From Malaciobacter marinus (GTDB lineage Bacteria > Campylobacterota > Campylobacteria > Campylobacterales > Arcobacteraceae), in the NCBI RefSeq assembly GCF_003544855.1, contig NZ_CP032101.1, positions 2,294,001 to 2,358,000 of the forward strand: 64,000 bases of DNA. Direction: 5' to 3'. Below, in pieces: positions 6,580 to 30,465 of the stretch. Numbering within the stretch: the first letter of the stretch is position 1; each line of letters starts with the position of its first letter. Under the pieces are notes generated by a model. That model was not told where the DNA came from and made no database searches. It saw only the letters and a program-made list of their open reading frames with translations. Both the position numbers and the translations under genes were made by a program.

Positions 6580-7329
6580 TTATTGAAACTTGTTTATAAA
6601 AAAATTTGTAAACGAGTGTGTAAAAATTTCCATTCCAAATATTAAAAATAGAAAAATAACTGCAAATTTCAACTGAAACGTAATAACAAATGGAGAAAAT
6701 GCAGGCATTGATCTTGTACCATAACCATAATATAAATCAAGTATAAATGCAATAAAAAAAAGAGGCAATGCAAAAGAGAAAGAAAAAGCAAAAAGCCTAT
6801 TTATTTCATCAATAATAATCTGTATTCCATCATATGAGAATATATCAAAATAACCCAAATGAATTATAGAAAAACTTTTTACTAGAATAACAAATGTCAT
6901 CTCATACATGCCTGTTTCAAAAAAAAGCACTAAAGCAACCATATACAAAAATCTATTAACAACACCTTCTTGTGTCCCTGTTGCAGGATCAAACATATTT
7001 GCCATAGATAAAGCTGTTGAGTACTCAATTAACTCCCCTATTATTCTAACAGCAGAAAATATAATATGTACAAAAAAAGCAGCAACTGCTCCTAATGTTA
7101 TTTCACTTATTAGTGAAAGTACAAACATATCTTGAGTAACTAAATTTTTTACTTCAATAATTGGAAATAAAAAAATAGTAACAAAAAAGGCAAAAGTTAC
7201 TCTAATTTTTGGACTAACTGCACTATGACCATAAACTGGCATAAAAGCTACAAAAGATAATATTCTTGCAAGAAGTAGTAAAAATTTAATTACTACAGCT
7301 TCATTTAGTAAGGATAAAAAGGCTTCCAT
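6580..7329 (-). CDS. fliR: Flagellar export gate protein FliR
   Basis: FliR is the polytopic membrane subunit that, with FliP and FliQ, forms the core export gate. The 249-residue protein is very hydrophobic, with about six membrane helices and the family features LLARILSFVAFMPVYG near the N-terminus and a central FDPATGTQEG stretch. Its ATG overlaps the end of fliK by one base. fliP and fliQ, which often neighbour fliR in other phyla, are absent here, as is common for dispersed flagellar genes of Campylobacterota. Confidence 0.95.
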   Translation of the reverse strand: MEAFLSLLNEAVVIKFLLLLARILSFVAFMPVYGHSAVSPKIRVTFAFFVTIFLFPIIEVKNLVTQDMFVLSLISEITLGAVAAFFVHIIFSAVRIIGELIEYSTALSMANMFDPATGTQEGVVNRFLYMVALVLFFETGMYEMTFVILVKSFSIIHLGYFDIFSYDGIQIIIDEINRLFAFSFSFALPLFFIAFILDLYYGYGTRSMPAFSPFVITFQLKFAVIFLFLIFGMEIFTHSFTNFFINKFQ

Positions 7330-9836
7330 TACATATAATTTGAGCTTTCTTCAGATTTTTTATTTGAGTTATTCATTGAATTTAAAATATCAGCAGAAGA
7401 TGGTGTTTCTCTTCTATTTTGTTGTCCTTGGTGATTTGAAGAGTTGCTATCTTGTCCTTGATTATCAGAACTTGTACTATCATCAGATGCAAAATTAAGA
7501 TTAAATTTAGTATCAGAATCAAAATTCTTTAAAAGTGCATTTCTTAAACCTGTTTCATTATTAACAAAGGCATCAAGTGTTGCTGCATTTGATATATTTA
7601 AACTAATATTAAGACCTGAGTCTTTATCACTTTTCATTAAAATAGCAATTGACCCTAATTGCGCTGGTAAAAGATTTATTCTAAAAGCAGTTACAGGTGG
7701 TTTGTAGTTTTCATACATATTTCTTGCAACATCAGACATCATTGAAGACATTTGTTGTTGTGCACCTATGATTCTACTTTGAATACTCATGGCTAAGTTA
7801 TTTGGAACATTAATATTAACATCAGCTCCTTGATTAGCCGATGAAGAAGATGAAGAGTTTGATTGTGAATTTGCAATATTACTATTTGATATTTCTTGCA
7901 TAATATTTTTATTTGTTGTTAGTTTTTCTATAAAATTATTTCTTTGTATCTCTTTTTGTTGATTATCTTTTAGTTCGATTTTTGTTTCTTGTAAACCCAA
8001 GTCAAGCTGTTTTGCACTTGTTTTTATATCATCAACACTTTTACCTTCTTTAGCAGTTTTTACACCCTCATGCTTCGCAATAATTGATTGACTAGCAATA
8101 CTATTTTTTTGAGAACTTAAATAAATATTTGTTAAAACATCATTTCTATTACCCAATGGTACTTTTTGAGGTTCATTTACTTCTAATTTTTTTGAATCAA
8201 TTATCTCTTTATTTGAAAGTTTTGAGTCATCAACTAATTTTTCCAATAAGCTTTTTGATGAGTTTTTATTTTCTAAAGAAACTTCAGCTTTTTTATTCTC
8301 TGTAGAAGTTTTTGGATCAAGTTTTGATAGTTCTTGTGCTACTTTTTCATTTTTAGTATTATTTTCTGTTGTAGAAGATGTATTACTTGATGAGTTTTTA
8401 TTAACTTCTGTTGAATTTTCACTTACTTTGTTTTCTTGTGTTTTTAAAATTTGATTTTTATTATCACTTATATTTTCTTGTATTTTTGAACTATCTTTTT
8501 TTATTTCTAATTTTTGATTATCTATTGATTCTTTTGAGTTATCTACTTTAACTTCTTTACTATTTTGTAGATTATTCTGTTTTTGTTCAATATTTTCATT
8601 ATCTACTTTAGTATCTTTTATATTATTTTCTATATTCAAATTTTCATTTTTACTAATTTTTACTTTATTATCTGTTTGTTTTGATGTTTCAATTGTATTT
8701 GTATTAGTATCTTTTTTTGCATTATTTGCATTTATAATTATCTCTTCTGTTTTTAAAACAGTTCCATCTTGTTTAGTTTTTGAATTTGTATTTTCTGTTT
8801 TATTATCACTATTAGAACTATCAAGTTTTTTATCATTTTCTATATTTTCTAAAGAGTTATTATTTACTTTAATTTCACTTTTAGTATCTTTTAATTGTAA
8901 ATCAGGTGTCTTTTCACTATCTTTTTTTGATAATTTTTCACTATTTTGTGTTTGTGTTTTTTCTTCTTTTTCTATCTTATTATCACTATTTTTATCTAAA
9001 GAGTCTTTAGTAACTTTTTTCTCATCGCTATTTATATTCTGTTTTGACTTTTCAATATCTTTTGTATCTAGTTGATTTTGCAATAACTCTTTTATATTTT
9101 TATTATTGCTATCTTTTTTTACTTCTTTAGTATTATCATTGCTATTTAAATCATCTGTTTTTTCAGACTTATTAGCTTTTTTCTCAGTTGTTTCTTCTTT
9201 TATATTAGGATTTACTTCTTCTTTTTGATTATTAGTTTTTGATGTCAAAGATGTATCATCTAAACTTTTATCTTTTTTAGTTTGTGTTTCTATCTCTTTT
9301 AAAATATCACCACTTTTAATATCTGTTTTTTTATTATCTTTTGATTCTACGTTCTTTGAATCCTTTGATGATTCATCATTTTGAGTAGTTTTGTCTTTTG
9401 TATTAGATGTATCAGGATCTTTTTCTTTTGCATCTTCTTTATTAGAGTTTTTTGCTTTTTTTGCTTCTAAAATCATTCTATCAAGCATAGACATTGAATT
9501 ATTATCTTTTTTTGTTTCTTTAGTAGTATTGCTTTCAACATTATCAACTTCTGCATCGTTTTTTGTTTTTTCTTTATTTATTACACTACTATTTGAAGAG
9601 TCAGTTTGCTTTGTATTTTCAGATTTTTGAGTTTCACTTTTTGTATTTAATACTTTTTCTTTTTCAATTGATTTATTATCTTTAGTAGAAACTTCTTCTT
9701 TACCCTTTGAGCTTTGTGCTAAAATTGAATCAAATAAAGATAGCCCTTCTTTTTTTTCTTTAGTTTCTTTAGTACCAAAACTATTTTCAGAAGATGACTT
9801 AGTCTTTGAAGATGATAATAAATCCATTTCTTTCAT
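7329..9836 (-). CDS. fliK: Flagellar hook-length control protein FliK, very long low-complexity form
   Basis: FliK is a secreted molecular ruler that stops hook growth by acting on FlhB. At 835 residues this one is about twice the usual enterobacterial length (around 400). Roughly residues 15-600 are a Lys/Asn/Asp/Glu/Ser/Thr-rich, apparently disordered stretch with almost no hydrophobic patches. The C-terminal part (about 690-790) matches the hook-length control fold, with TAFRINLLPAQLGSIAILMK and the following GLNISLNISNAATLDAFV. Gln/Asn/Ser tails flank that domain. The gene lies between flgC and fliR. The assignment rests on the C-terminal domain and the location. Confidence 0.9.
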   Translation of the reverse strand: MKEMDLLSSSKTKSSSENSFGTKETKEKKEGLSLFDSILAQSSKGKEEVSTKDNKSIEKEKVLNTKSETQKSENTKQTDSSNSSVINKEKTKNDAEVDNVESNTTKETKKDNNSMSMLDRMILEAKKAKNSNKEDAKEKDPDTSNTKDKTTQNDESSKDSKNVESKDNKKTDIKSGDILKEIETQTKKDKSLDDTSLTSKTNNQKEEVNPNIKEETTEKKANKSEKTDDLNSNDNTKEVKKDSNNKNIKELLQNQLDTKDIEKSKQNINSDEKKVTKDSLDKNSDNKIEKEEKTQTQNSEKLSKKDSEKTPDLQLKDTKSEIKVNNNSLENIENDKKLDSSNSDNKTENTNSKTKQDGTVLKTEEIIINANNAKKDTNTNTIETSKQTDNKVKISKNENLNIENNIKDTKVDNENIEQKQNNLQNSKEVKVDNSKESIDNQKLEIKKDSSKIQENISDNKNQILKTQENKVSENSTEVNKNSSSNTSSTTENNTKNEKVAQELSKLDPKTSTENKKAEVSLENKNSSKSLLEKLVDDSKLSNKEIIDSKKLEVNEPQKVPLGNRNDVLTNIYLSSQKNSIASQSIIAKHEGVKTAKEGKSVDDIKTSAKQLDLGLQETKIELKDNQQKEIQRNNFIEKLTTNKNIMQEISNSNIANSQSNSSSSSSANQGADVNINVPNNLAMSIQSRIIGAQQQMSSMMSDVARNMYENYKPPVTAFRINLLPAQLGSIAILMKSDKDSGLNISLNISNAATLDAFVNNETGLRNALLKNFDSDTKFNLNFASDDSTSSDNQGQDSNSSNHQGQQNRRETPSSADILNSMNNSNKKSEESSNYM

Positions 9837-11021: not shown

Positions 11022-11837
11022 TTATTTTATATTTTTAAGTAAAGTATCAATTATAGCTTGTAGTTCCTTAGTTGAGTCATCATTTTTAAACTCAAAACTA
11101 AATAATTTTCTTAACCGGCCAGTTGTTGAAATATTTGCAGAAGTTGATACATTACCTATATATTTTACCATAAAATTATCATTTAATCTATTTTTTTTAG
11201 CCAAATTTATTAAAGAATTTGAAATTGTATTTCCAATTTGATGATTTTTTGTATGATTAAAACATAACATAAGCTGTTCTTTATCTTTGGATAGCATTTT
11301 TATTAAAGCATACAAATCAGTTAATGCACTAGGATCAGTTGTAGTAACTGCTAAAATATTATCAGATATTGCCAAAAATTCTTTAACATACTCATTTAAA
11401 CCAGCTCCTGTATCAACTAAAACAACATCAAATTCATTTAAACTTATAATATCCTCAACTATTCTTGCAAAAACAAAAGAGTTAGAGTGATTTGAGTATT
11501 GATAACCACTCTTACCAGCAACTAGTGAAATATTTTTATAAGCTGTTTGAAGTAAAACCTCATCAATAGTAACTTTTCCTTCAATATAATCAAATAGTGT
11601 ATATCTTGGTTTCATATCAAATAGTACTTGCATATTTGCTAAGCCAATATCAGCATCAACTATTGCCACTTTAAAACCTCTTGAAGATAATAAATACGCA
11701 ATGTTTCCAGTAAAAGTTGATTTACCTACTCCACCCTTACCTGATGTAATTGTTAGTAATTTAGTTTTTGACTCTCTTTGTCTATTTTTTGTAAGATTGA
11801 TTAATCTACTTGCTTGATTTGAAATACTATTAAACAC
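11022..11837 (-). CDS. flhG: MinD-like ATPase FlhG controlling flagellar number and placement
   Basis: FlhG (YlxH/FleN) is a MinD/ParA-family ATPase that limits flagellar number and acts on the GTPase FlhF. The deviant Walker A motif TSGKGGVGKST is near residues 31-41, followed by DADIGLANMQ and VLVDTGAG, the ParA switch motifs. A longer reading from a TTG at 11855 is possible, but I choose the GTG at 11837: AAGGAG lies 6 bases before it, whereas the TTG would place that ribosome site inside the coding sequence. With this start the gene begins 2 bases after the flhF stop. The flhF-flhG pair is the usual arrangement in polar flagellates. Confidence 0.93.
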   Translation of the reverse strand: MFNSISNQASRLINLTKNRQRESKTKLLTITSGKGGVGKSTFTGNIAYLLSSRGFKVAIVDADIGLANMQVLFDMKPRYTLFDYIEGKVTIDEVLLQTAYKNISLVAGKSGYQYSNHSNSFVFARIVEDIISLNEFDVVLVDTGAGLNEYVKEFLAISDNILAVTTTDPSALTDLYALIKMLSKDKEQLMLCFNHTKNHQIGNTISNSLINLAKKNRLNDNFMVKYIGNVSTSANISTTGRLRKLFSFEFKNDDSTKELQAIIDTLLKNIK

Positions 11838-11839
11838 TC

Positions 11840-13003
11840 TTATCTCCTTGGACAAGAACTATTCATAAAACAGTCAATCAAAAAAGATGCATCTGATACG
11901 ATTAAGTCATCTGGAACATTTTGTCCTATAGAAAAATATGTAATTGACTTTTTTGTTTTATGTGCAAAAGAAATCAAATTTCCAAAACTTCTAGTTTCAT
12001 CAAGCTTAGTAAAAGTCAAATAATCAATATTTAATCTTGAGTAGTTTGCATAAATATCAATTAAATCACTTTGTTTTACATTTGCAGGAAGTACCAATAT
12101 TTTTTCAATAGGTAATTCTTCTATTCTATTTTGATACTCATTTATTAACTCTATTTTATCCACATCATATTGACTAGAACCAGCAGTATCTATAAATATA
12201 TAATTGCAATCTTTTAATCTAAGTAATGCTTCTATTAAATCCTCTGGATTTTTAACAATTTCTAAAGGTAAACGCATAATATTTGTATAAGCTTGCAATT
12301 GTTCAATAGCTCCAACTCTAAATGAATCTAAAGTTACAATTCCAACTTTATAATTTTGTCCTAATTTATATGCATATCTAGCAGCTAATTTTGCAATTGT
12401 TGTAGTTTTACCAACTCCTGTTGGGCCAACCATCATCGTAATTTTTCTTTGATGTTTTCTTAATGGTACTTCATGTTTAATAGGAAGTATTCTTCTTAAA
12501 ATTAATTTAAAAAAATCATTGACTTTTTTAGGATTTGCTTTTAATGAAACTGGCAATTGTTTTATTGTTTTTTTCATTATTGTGTAGGTCATCTCTTGAT
12601 CAAATTCATTTTGTTCAAAAAGATTATACATATCTGCAAATTCAGGAGGGATAGTCAAATCATACAGTTGACTTTTAGGATCCCATATTGATTTTTGAAC
12701 CTGTCCAATTGCATCTTGCATTTTAAGTATTTCTGCTCTAAAATCATACACAGAAGCTTGAAATTTTTCATCTTTTTTTGGATCTTTTGAAACAATTTTT
12801 TTTGTATAAGTTGACTTCTTTATAGGTTCATTCATAGTATTACTATCTTCTAATGCAACAACCACCTCATACATATCTTTATTACCATCTTTAGCACTAG
12901 ATATTTTTTTAGTAGATATTACAATTGCTTCTTCACCACACTCTTCTTGAGCCTTTTTTAAAGCAATTGTTGGTGTTTCTCCTAAAAATGAAAGCATATT
13001 CAT
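11840..13003 (-). CDS. flhF: SRP-type GTPase FlhF (flagellar pole targeting)
   Basis: FlhF is an Ffh/FtsY-like GTPase that marks the cell pole for flagellar assembly. The 387 residues contain an N-terminal B domain (about 1-140, Lys-rich), an N domain, and a G domain with P-loop GPTGVGKTT at 193-201, then TLDSFRVGAIEQLQAY, FIDTAG and TKLDETRSFG, which are the SRP-GTPase motifs G2-G4. It overlaps the upstream mini-FlgA gene by 4 bases and is followed by flhG. The linker around 55-80 is charged and likely flexible. Confidence 0.96.
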   Translation of the reverse strand: MNMLSFLGETPTIALKKAQEECGEEAIVISTKKISSAKDGNKDMYEVVVALEDSNTMNEPIKKSTYTKKIVSKDPKKDEKFQASVYDFRAEILKMQDAIGQVQKSIWDPKSQLYDLTIPPEFADMYNLFEQNEFDQEMTYTIMKKTIKQLPVSLKANPKKVNDFFKLILRRILPIKHEVPLRKHQRKITMMVGPTGVGKTTTIAKLAARYAYKLGQNYKVGIVTLDSFRVGAIEQLQAYTNIMRLPLEIVKNPEDLIEALLRLKDCNYIFIDTAGSSQYDVDKIELINEYQNRIEELPIEKILVLPANVKQSDLIDIYANYSRLNIDYLTFTKLDETRSFGNLISFAHKTKKSITYFSIGQNVPDDLIVSDASFLIDCFMNSSCPRR

Positions 13004-15608: not shown

Positions 15609-16526
15609 TTACTTCAATCCTAACTGGTTTAATCTTAGTGCTTCGTTTCCTATACTTTTTACTTTAAGTCCAAATTTTCCTTCAACAATAACTGCTTCTC
15701 CCTCACCAATTTTAACACCATTTACAAGTATTTCTAAAGGTTCATTTACCATTTGGTCAAGCTCTATTATTTCACCTATATCCCAACGCAAAATATCTTT
15801 TAATAAAAAGTTTTTTGTTCCTAATCTTACACTAAGTTTTAACTTTATATTAAACAATAATTGTAAATTATGTGCAGAATTTTCAGATAACAAAGAACTA
15901 ATACCAAGATTATCACTTGATGAAGTTTTATTTGATTGATTTGAAGGACTACTTTGTTCACTATTGCTTGAATTTTCTGATGCTAAAGGTAAATCCTGAA
16001 CATCATCTTTACCTGTTATTGAACTAATAAAAGGAAGTATTAGTTTATCAAAACTGATAATAACAGGTAATTTTTCAGAATCCATAGATAAAGAAAATTC
16101 ATAAATATTTTCAGCTTCTTTCATAGATGAAGATTCAACAATTGATGAGTTTAATACTTCAAACTTAATACTTCCTATATCATCAAAATTTTGTGCATTA
16201 ACAGATGTTGAAAAACTTCCACAAATATTAGAAGTGATTTCATTAACTGCATCAGCAATTTCATCATCTATATGTTCTTTTAAATCACCCATTCCACCTA
16301 GCATAAAATATTCAAATTTTGTAGCTGAAATAGTTGGAATAAAAAATGACCAATTACTCGTACCAGCATTAAAATCAAACTTAACATCAACTTGTATACA
16401 TTGAGTTGGCTCATAATTCTCTTTATCTAACTCTTGTATATTATCAATTGTTGAACTTTTTGACAATAATTGCTCTAATGTGTTTGTTAACTCATCTTTT
16501 AATATATTTGATAAATCTGATGCCAA
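15609..16526 (-). CDS. fliY: Flagellar motor switch protein FliY
   Basis: FliY is a switch-complex component of Campylobacterota that carries a CheC/FliM-like middle domain and a FliN-like C-terminal SpoA domain. In 305 residues I see the middle domain at about 45-170 (DDEIADAVNEITSNICGSF) and the SpoA domain at about 225-300 (KLSVRLGTKNFLLKDILRWDIG, then LEILVNGVKIGEGEAV). A Ser/Asn-rich linker joins them. The CheC-type phosphatase pattern E-x2-N is not kept exactly: after Glu the Asn falls one position late. No FliM-like CheY-docking peptide is present at its N-terminus. The start is a TTG 9 bases after an AAGG site. A separate short FliN is encoded at 24 kb. Confidence 0.88.
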   Translation of the reverse strand: MASDLSNILKDELTNTLEQLLSKSSTIDNIQELDKENYEPTQCIQVDVKFDFNAGTSNWSFFIPTISATKFEYFMLGGMGDLKEHIDDEIADAVNEITSNICGSFSTSVNAQNFDDIGSIKFEVLNSSIVESSSMKEAENIYEFSLSMDSEKLPVIISFDKLILPFISSITGKDDVQDLPLASENSSNSEQSSPSNQSNKTSSSDNLGISSLLSENSAHNLQLLFNIKLKLSVRLGTKNFLLKDILRWDIGEIIELDQMVNEPLEILVNGVKIGEGEAVIVEGKFGLKVKSIGNEALRLNQLGLK

Positions 16527-28932: not shown

Positions 28933-30054
28933 TTAGTTCCCAAACTCTGAAATTAATGATTCTAAATCTTCGTCATCTAAGACATCAGCTGTACTATCTC
29001 CATGAATATGTCTTGCAACTGCAATCTCTTGATGAGAACCTTCATCTTCAAATAAGTTATTAAGATAAATTGAAAGTTTTCTAATTACAGTCATAACTCT
29101 TTCAATTTTTTGCCTATTAATATCATGAAATTGCATTAACTCCATTGCTTCAAATATTTGCATATTTTCAGCATCAAGTTTTCCACTTACAGAAGCTATC
29201 TCTTGTTTTATTTTTGCAGTTTCATTTAAATGTTGCTCAAAAATTGATATATTTGGAAACTTTTTATTTAAAGATTCTAAAAGTGCAGTTTGTTTATTTA
29301 AAAATTCGTCTGTTGTTTTTAAAGACTTTTGAACATCATTATTATCATCAAGTACATAACTTAATACATCAAAAATTTTAGAGGCTTTTTCTTCTGAATC
29401 ATTTGCAACTTGGCTTAATTGATTAACAACTTTAGTATCTTTTTCTGCTGGAAAAGGGAAAATCCCTTCATCTATTTTACTCACAATATGCTCTTCATGA
29501 TCATTATTTCTTTCTTGAACTTTTTCAGTTTTATCTTCGACTTTAGGAGTTTTTTCTTTTTTTGATTCTGTATTTGTTTCTACTGGCTCGTTATCTGTAA
29601 TTCCATCAATTCCCGCTAAAATATCATCATAATTTTCTTCACTAATTTCATCATTTTCACTAGATAGATCTGAATTATCAATTTCACTTTCATTAGATGA
29701 GTAAGAATCATTAGAATCATCATCTACTCCATCAATCCCTTTTAAAAGCTCATCAATATCTTCATCACTTGCAGTTTCATTATCTTCTACATCATCAATA
29801 TTAGCTAATATATCATCCAATCCATCATCAGTTGAAGAATATTCTTCTTCTAAATCTGTATCTGTTGTATCTGTATCATTAGCTTCATCGGTCTTATTAA
29901 CAGTTTCATCTACTTTAGGCTCATCAATATTTTCTTCAACATCATTAGTTTCATTTTCGTCATTCTCTTCTATTTTAACTTCTTCAGAATTTTCATTTTC
30001 ATCTAAATCTAGCCCATTCATAAGTGATTCTATTTCTTCTTGACTCATACTCAT
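28933..30054 (-). CDS. cheZ: CheZ-like CheY-P phosphatase with multiple CheY-docking-like motifs
   Basis: The 373-residue protein has an acidic, disordered first half and a helical phosphatase region (about 205-340). The latter contains EAMELMQFHDINRQKIERV, which aligns with the catalytic Asp and Gln of E. coli CheZ (D-x3-Q; here Asp311 and Gln315). The C-terminus DDEDLESLISEFGN resembles the CheZ peptide that binds CheY. The N-terminus SQEEIESLMNGLD (4-16) resembles the FliM CheY-binding peptide, and three more related motifs lie at about 77-91 (LDDILANID), 97-110 (IDELLKGID) and 139-153 (YDDILAGID). It is 39 bases downstream of cheY. CheZ of Campylobacterota is divergent, which explains the weak overall similarity. 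Catalysis is inferred from motif and context. Confidence 0.78.
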   Translation of the reverse strand: MSMSQEEIESLMNGLDLDENENSEEVKIEENDENETNDVEENIDEPKVDETVNKTDEANDTDTTDTDLEEEYSSTDDGLDDILANIDDVEDNETASDEDIDELLKGIDGVDDDSNDSYSSNESEIDNSDLSSENDEISEENYDDILAGIDGITDNEPVETNTESKKEKTPKVEDKTEKVQERNNDHEEHIVSKIDEGIFPFPAEKDTKVVNQLSQVANDSEEKASKIFDVLSYVLDDNNDVQKSLKTTDEFLNKQTALLESLNKKFPNISIFEQHLNETAKIKQEIASVSGKLDAENMQIFEAMELMQFHDINRQKIERVMTVIRKLSIYLNNLFEDEGSHQEIAVARHIHGDSTADVLDDEDLESLISEFGN

Positions 30055-30093: not shown

Positions 30094-30465
30094 TTAGTTT
30101 TTCAACACTCCATCAAGTTTTTCTTTTAAAATATCTGCACTAAATGGTTTAACAATATAGTTATTAACTCCCGCTTTCAAAGCTGTAATAACTTCTGATT
30201 TACCACCTTCTGTAGTAATCATAATAATTGGAGTTTTTTGATGATTACCTTCTGATCTTACTTTTTTTACTAATTCAAGTCCATTCATATTTGGCATATT
30301 CCAATCAGTTAAGATTATATCAAAATGTGATTCTGAAAGAAGTTTCCACGCTTTAACTCCATCTTCTGCTTCATCAAAATCTTCTTTTGAAAAGCCTAAC
30401 TGCATTACAACATTACCAATGATTCTCCTCATTGTAGAACTATCATCAACTATTAAAATTTTCAT
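30094..30465 (-). CDS. cheY: Chemotaxis response regulator CheY
   Basis: CheY-P binds the flagellar switch and changes rotation. The 123-residue single receiver domain has the acidic pair Asp7/Asp8, phospho-acceptor Asp54 (LTDWNMPN), Thr84 (MITTEGG), Tyr103 and Lys106 (YIVKPF), all as in classical CheY. No output domain is present. It heads the minus-strand flagellar run, behind a TATAAT box, and is followed by the CheZ-like phosphatase gene. Confidence 0.95.
   Translation of the reverse strand: MKILIVDDSSTMRRIIGNVVMQLGFSKEDFDEAEDGVKAWKLLSESHFDIILTDWNMPNMNGLELVKKVRSEGNHQKTPIIMITTEGGKSEVITALKAGVNNYIVKPFSADILKEKLDGVLKN

Follow-up and report, generated by a model that had tools for sequence, protein, structure and literature searches.

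What would a CheY-P phosphatase gain from carrying, besides its catalytic core, five related short motifs of the kind that FliM and CheZ itself use to bind CheY? The question is raised by the cheZ gene at 28933..30054 (minus strand) of the 64,000-nucleotide stretch of Malaciobacter marinus DNA analyzed here (the window), which belongs to a genome of 2.92 Mb in one contig. The open reading frame encodes a 373-aa CheZ-type phosphatase with a multi-motif N-terminal arm, and a flagellar gene cluster (gene names assigned by eye) surrounds it. The neighboring cheY named in a preliminary description of the locus was confirmed: it lies 39 nt upstream (30094..30465, minus strand), is of the CheYz type, and encodes a 123-aa protein that is the putative docking partner and substrate of CheZ.

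By homology the window protein is a flagellar CheY-P phosphatase, its activity being predicted. In profile searches, NCBIfam Phos_CheZ matched residues 158-372 (E 4.3e-34, 118.1 bits) and Pfam CheZ matched with an E of 0.0039 (17.5 bits); both scores fall under the curated cut-offs (350 and 30.7 bits, respectively), so automatic annotation by these rules would miss the CheZ name. The Phos_CheZ profile matched 41 of the 41 sequences in our CheZ alignment, throughout which Asp311 and Gln315, proposed earlier as a catalytic D-x3-Q pair, proved invariant. This pair, within D311-I-N-R-Q315 (29110..29124, minus strand), aligns with the D-x3-Q of E. coli CheZ (1KMI chain Z) at an E of 0.38, a barely detectable sequence similarity. 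The pattern D-I-[NH]-[RK]-Q was found in all 92 orthologues of the family Arcobacteraceae (91 by regular expression and one, L091, by reading). A Pfam scan of the protein up to E 1 returned just CheZ and a weak TPR_P4H match, with no FliM or FliMN_C domain. An AlphaFold2 single-chain model built on the 41-sequence alignment placed the CheZ core, residues 205-340 (29035..29442, minus strand), in a predicted long helical hairpin consisting of helices 205-265 and 270-340, mostly with pLDDT above 80. When this model was submitted to Foldseek, 1KMI appeared at rank 17 (E 2.3) amid many unrelated helical hairpins, and it was not among the best 50 VIA-align matches; both searches returned chemoreceptor coiled coils and helical hairpins of a generic kind, and the fold comparison was not counted as evidence.

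The positions given earlier for the five related motifs held in the translation, all on the minus strand. At the N-terminus lies a FliM-like motif, SQEEIESLMNGLD (residues 4-16, 30007..30045), recognized by regular expression and predicted as a helix at 5-12. It is followed by an acidic linker (residues 17-185, 29500..30006) that mostly has pLDDT below 50, a disordered-looking stretch that bears out the acidic tether of the preliminary description. Within it, three internal motifs were identified by profile and as DNA repeats: DGLDDILANIDD (residues 77-88, 29791..29826; helix 79-84), EDIDELLKGIDG (residues 98-109, 29728..29763; helix 97-107) and ENYDDILAGIDG (residues 140-151, 29602..29637; helix 141-147), with the cores LDDILANID (79-87), IDELLKGID (100-108) and YDDILAGID (142-150), respectively. 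The C-terminal motif, EDLESLISEFG (residues 362-372, 28939..28971), resembles the CheZ tail and was recognized by regular expression, with a predicted helix at 361-372; the protein ends in DLESLISEFGN (363-373). AlphaFold2 thus gave short helices at all five motifs, with pLDDT below 50 between them, and also two helices outside the motifs (49-53 and 185-195). In the model of one orthologue (L062), helices at 5-17, 29-38, 54-61, 77-83 and 281-292 covered all five of its motifs, situated at the N-terminus and at residues 29, 52, 75 and 282.

A direct-repeat search made at the DNA level, without the protein motif, yielded as the longest family of the gene three 42-nt copies (29602-29643, 29728-29769 and 29791-29832) that coincide with the three internal motifs. 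A further copy has been lost: at residues 44-56 (29887..29925, minus strand), a six-species alignment and per-species motif lists showed that the other five species of the genus keep SNDDIDKLLAE or SNDDIEKLLSE where the window protein has lost the motif. This loss, and the fact that the DNA copies are still recognizable at 64-76% identity, would suit neutral duplication products in an acidic low-complexity arm, a reading that the conservation and shuffling results given next make highly improbable.

A strict regular expression hit the window protein once, and 11% of the protein's own shuffles also matched; as this single-protein result is not significant, family statistics were used instead. 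CheZ matches were obtained in 95 of 104 Arcobacteraceae genomes, and the orthologue set comprised 92 full-length proteins from 17 genera after a split gene, a degenerate copy and a genome with a short paralogue alone had been left out. Regular expressions for the internal, N-terminal and C-terminal motifs were composed after the sequences had been inspected; the internal one gave 194 hits in 91 linkers, compared with a shuffled mean of 15.3 and a maximum of 26 (500 shuffles). With a leave-one-genus-out position-specific scoring matrix (PSSM) at 8 bits, 208 internal motifs were counted in 92 linkers versus a mean of 1.35 and a maximum of 3 in shuffled linkers (20 shuffles), and the excess persisted at 6 bits (230 versus 2.6) and at 10 bits (177 versus 0.4). 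Scored by BLOSUM62 against the FliM peptide of the window genome, 53 segments reached a value of at least 22 (shuffled mean 9.15, maximum 14; 20 shuffles). The orthologues share ancestry, so these totals represent non-independent events; even so, across the family they are strong evidence against chance repeats. In the six-species alignment of the genus, invariant positions made up 21 of 36 internal-motif residues (58%) as opposed to 12 of 131 other linker residues (9%; Fisher p 2e-9), a contrast inflated by the tendency of the aligner to anchor on motifs; invariance in the same alignment was complete for the N-terminal motif, 82% for the C-terminal motif and 72% for the core. The PSSM totals and the invariance contrast both argue against neutral duplication.

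Members of the wider phylum indicated how old each part of this arrangement may be. A CheZ search over 397 genomes of the phylum matched 329, and from the matches we hand-picked an outgroup sample of 20 CheZ proteins belonging to seven other Campylobacterota families. All 20 start with M[TN]Q[ED]ELD and end in a [DE]xIExLI-type tail, and the two-ended form, an N-terminal peptide plus a C-terminal tail, is therefore probably ancestral in the phylum. The FliM-like N-terminus pointed out in the preliminary description is thus present in the window protein without being peculiar to it. In contrast, internal motifs are missing from the 20 outgroup proteins: the regular expression that hits Arcobacteraceae linkers 1.79 times per 100 residues had no hit in their linkers (988 residues), where acidity is the same as in Arcobacteraceae (0.33 in both) and linker length is 27-92 residues versus 64-217. 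Chance repetition in an acidic arm was rejected on this null count and on the PSSM totals, and the equal acidity of the barren outgroup linkers also speaks against neutral duplication. Judged from these sequences, the internal copies are an Arcobacteraceae addition with respect to the 20 outgroup CheZ sampled.

Within the family, both end motifs were detected by regular expression in 92 of 92 orthologues, and the number of internal copies ranged from 0 to 6, with at least one in 87 of 92 (PSSM, 8 bits): five proteins had none, 19 had one, 32 two, 22 three, 12 four, and one protein each had five and six. Whether repeat number varies among orthologues, a point raised in the preliminary description, is thereby answered. 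Copy number increased with linker length (Spearman 0.65), and successive internal copies were separated by 18-101 residues (median 31). That description had let its docking proposal depend on the retention of motif spacing; spacing was not conserved, though the end motifs were kept without exception. Such free spacing fits a flexible tether and rules out a fixed geometry. The constancy of the ends beside so variable an interior, together with the occurrence of ends only in the 20 outgroup proteins, would agree with a division of labor in which the end motifs dock CheY and the internal repeats act as a spacer or bind another short-motif partner. We regard this division as improbable: conservation of the internal repeats far exceeds that of the surrounding linker, and the repeats share with the end motifs the heptad-like pattern I-[DE]-x-L-L.

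We then considered which partner the motifs point to. The FliM N-peptide MAEFLSQDEIDALL starts all 31 FliM proteins examined, out of 94 genomes with FliM, and the N-terminal motif of the window CheZ matches it with a sequence similar to S-Q-x-E-I-D-A-L-L, as do those of all 92 orthologues. The pattern QxxI[DE]xL[LM] had five DNA hits in the window genome: three lie within 20 residues of a protein's N-terminus, in FliM, in CheZ and in an unrelated enzyme (MQEEIEPLL), and the remaining two are protein-internal in one case and across a stop codon in the other. Of the 104 genomes, 92 have cheZ together with fliM, seven have neither and five have one of the two. A FliN/FliY-type protein is also encoded in the window (15609-16526, minus strand; FliMN_C with a weak CheX match), and inspection by eye revealed no SQxEIDALL or EIDAL motif at its N-terminus.

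On the CheY side, 91 of 92 loci have a cheY gene immediately upstream of cheZ, with gaps of up to 46 nt; at the remaining locus (L091) no cheY was found in the 687 bases upstream of cheZ. The closest solved chain to the window CheY is a CheY homologue, 3gwg_A (E 6.4e-46), and the window protein has D54, W55, T84, K89, Y103, K106 and K116. The peptide-groove residues T84, K89, Y103, K106 and K116, equivalent to T87, K92, Y106, K109 and K119 of E. coli CheY, are invariant in 91 of 91 adjacent CheYs; D54 and W55 are invariant as well, but these were required by the search pattern. When the PSSM of the internal motifs was applied to the candidate relatives, the C-terminal tail of the window CheZ scored 9.4 bits, FliM 7.5 and the N-terminus of the window CheZ 6.1, and one outgroup CheZ tail scored 18.9 bits and one outgroup N-terminus 2.9. 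The internal profile thus prefers the C-terminal tail, a result in favor of CheY as the partner of the internal copies, with the partner of the N-terminal motif less certain; being under the 8-bit threshold, the N-terminal motif may be of another class.

The EIDAL motif of FliM is itself the contact with FlhG. FlhG is reported to interact with FliM via the FliM N-terminus (PMC12826062), so motif resemblance alone cannot name the partner. The N-terminal and internal motifs might accordingly mimic the FliM N-peptide and, with FlhG or some other polar protein as their partner, bring CheZ to the flagellated pole, the tail alone docking CheY-P. A MinD-like ATPase that reads by eye as FlhG is encoded in the same window (11022-11855) beside a FlhF-like ORF, the polar localization of H. 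pylori CheZ needs ChePep (PMC11237671), in an alpha-proteobacterium the N-terminal region of CheZ directs its placement (PMC7750401), and the differing profile scores of N-terminal and internal motifs would suit polar placement as well. On the other hand, one partner site would be enough for placement, yet copies have multiplied to as many as six, and the internal copies score closer to the CheZ C-terminal tail than to the N-terminal peptide; polar placement, the chief rival of CheY docking, is in our estimate unlikely.

The interpretation that we favor, and consider moderately probable, is that Arcobacteraceae CheZ is a CheY-P phosphatase that gathers CheY-P around itself through docking on its end and internal motifs. 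Dephosphorylation of CheY-P would be the task of the helical hairpin with D311 and Q315, and all five motifs, from the FliM-like N-terminal peptide through the three internal helices to the C-terminal helix, would be docking sites for the alpha4-beta5-alpha5 groove of CheY, with a preference for CheY-P. The FliM EIDALL peptide binds the alpha4/alpha5 groove of CheY with a Kd of 27 uM, and the FliM N-terminus has been portrayed as a tether through which more CheY-P molecules reach a second site (PMC9126983). Since single peptides of the FliM type bind weakly, several on one flexible tether would be expected to recapture CheY-P by rebinding and keep it close to the active sites; one CheZ dimer could in this manner hold many CheY-P molecules, and shared CheY-P could link CheZ dimers. 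What we observed directly are the motifs, their conservation and predicted helicity, an expansion confined to the family, and the conservation of the groove in the neighboring CheY. From these sequence features we infer CheY-P binding by every motif, along with all of the kinetic consequences. Counting against docking, internal motifs are missing at 8 bits from five of the 92 orthologues, and spacing is free.

Each element of the proposed arrangement has a counterpart in a known system. E. coli CheZ (1KMI) likewise carries its D-x3-Q in a long helical hairpin, and its main CheY-P binding element is a C-terminal helix on a flexible tether (PMC1447658, PMC7750401); it differs in having an N-terminal helix of unknown function and, as far as it is described in the relevant part of PMC7750401, no FliM-like peptide or repeat arm. 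Campylobacterota CheZ of the H. pylori/C. jejuni type (NCBIfam NF041271) shares the core, the C-terminal tail and the N-terminal M[TN]Q[ED]ELD, but has a shorter linker and, in the 20 proteins sampled, none of the internal motifs of Arcobacteraceae. FliM has the same S-Q-x-E-I-[DE]-x-L-[LM] at its extreme N-terminus as a single copy ahead of C-ring domains, whereas in the window CheZ the motif heads a phosphatase and related copies follow. In the oligomer model of E. coli CheZ and CheYp, tethered docking sites also let CheY-P bridge CheZ dimers, with one docking helix per CheZ subunit as compared with five motif copies here (PMC1447658). FliY/CheC-type phosphatases such as B. subtilis FliY similarly begin with an EIDAL docking peptide, but they have an unrelated CheC-like fold, are components of the C-ring and contain a single motif (PMC12826062, PMC9126983). 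In the literature that we searched, CheZ is nowhere reported to carry FliM-like or repeated motifs, and an earlier mention of the N-terminal motif is possible. What is new is the lineage-limited array of repeated docking-like motifs; the CheZ phosphatase family is already known.

A further-reaching version of the docking interpretation, which we put forward tentatively and think rather doubtful, casts Arcobacteraceae CheZ as a multivalent scaffold that would buffer CheY-P, compete with FliM for it and crosslink it into stimulus-dependent assemblies. Five motif copies per subunit would make ten per dimer, and motif number, repeatedly changed by evolution across the 0 to 6 internal copies, would set signal lifetime. 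An earlier study, which had come to our view of CheYz and FliM, noted that Arcobacter has kept cheYZ while F7 took the place of its F3 kinase class; CheZ motifs are not discussed in the available part of that paper (PMC9321776). As the motifs expanded in the family in which the ancestral F3 system gave way to F7, the expansion may have adapted an old phosphatase to a new kinase.

If the motifs do dock CheY-P, the orthologues would constitute a natural series of phosphatases differing in docking-site number, suited to measuring how multivalency affects signal lifetime, motor bias and noise. Docking would also explain what the N-terminal region of Campylobacterota CheZ does, and would illustrate how a phosphatase that was kept may be retuned once its kinase system has been replaced. 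Binding to FlhG or another polar protein would supply a candidate mechanism for the polar placement of CheZ.

Several minor observations were made in the course of the survey. An 835-aa low-complexity protein rich in Lys, Asn, Glu and Ser is encoded at 7329-9836 (minus strand), where a hook-length control protein would be expected. In metagenome-assembled genomes (MAGs) labelled Desulfurellales (L209, L210), CheZ begins with M[SA]QNEIDDLIAEFNK (M[SA]QNEIDDLIAEF), an N-terminus that resembles the C-terminal tail of Arcobacteraceae CheZ (LIAEF). One CheZ homologue (L095:790-1329) keeps the N-terminal and one internal motif but has neither D-x3-Q nor the C-terminal motif; it resembles a decaying gene, and its genome (1.5 Mb, 88% complete) had no FliM match. 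The Malaciobacter marinus genome itself encodes, outside the window, a short CheZ-like paralogue of about 117 aa (G000:C1:926625-926990; L240:1516-1875, plus strand), adjoined by an ORF that reads by eye as chemoreceptor-like; the paralogue has a D-x3-Q (HQDLHRQRIER) and a C-terminal EEDLEALIKQM tail and is without the long hairpin. A MAG labelled Helicobacter pylori PMSS1 (L182, L211) contains both an Arcobacteraceae-type CheZ and a short paralogue, and its label is probably wrong. Similar short proteins, some of which start with MTQEELDALM, occur in other genomes (L096-L099, L211-L214) and possibly represent a mini-CheZ class.
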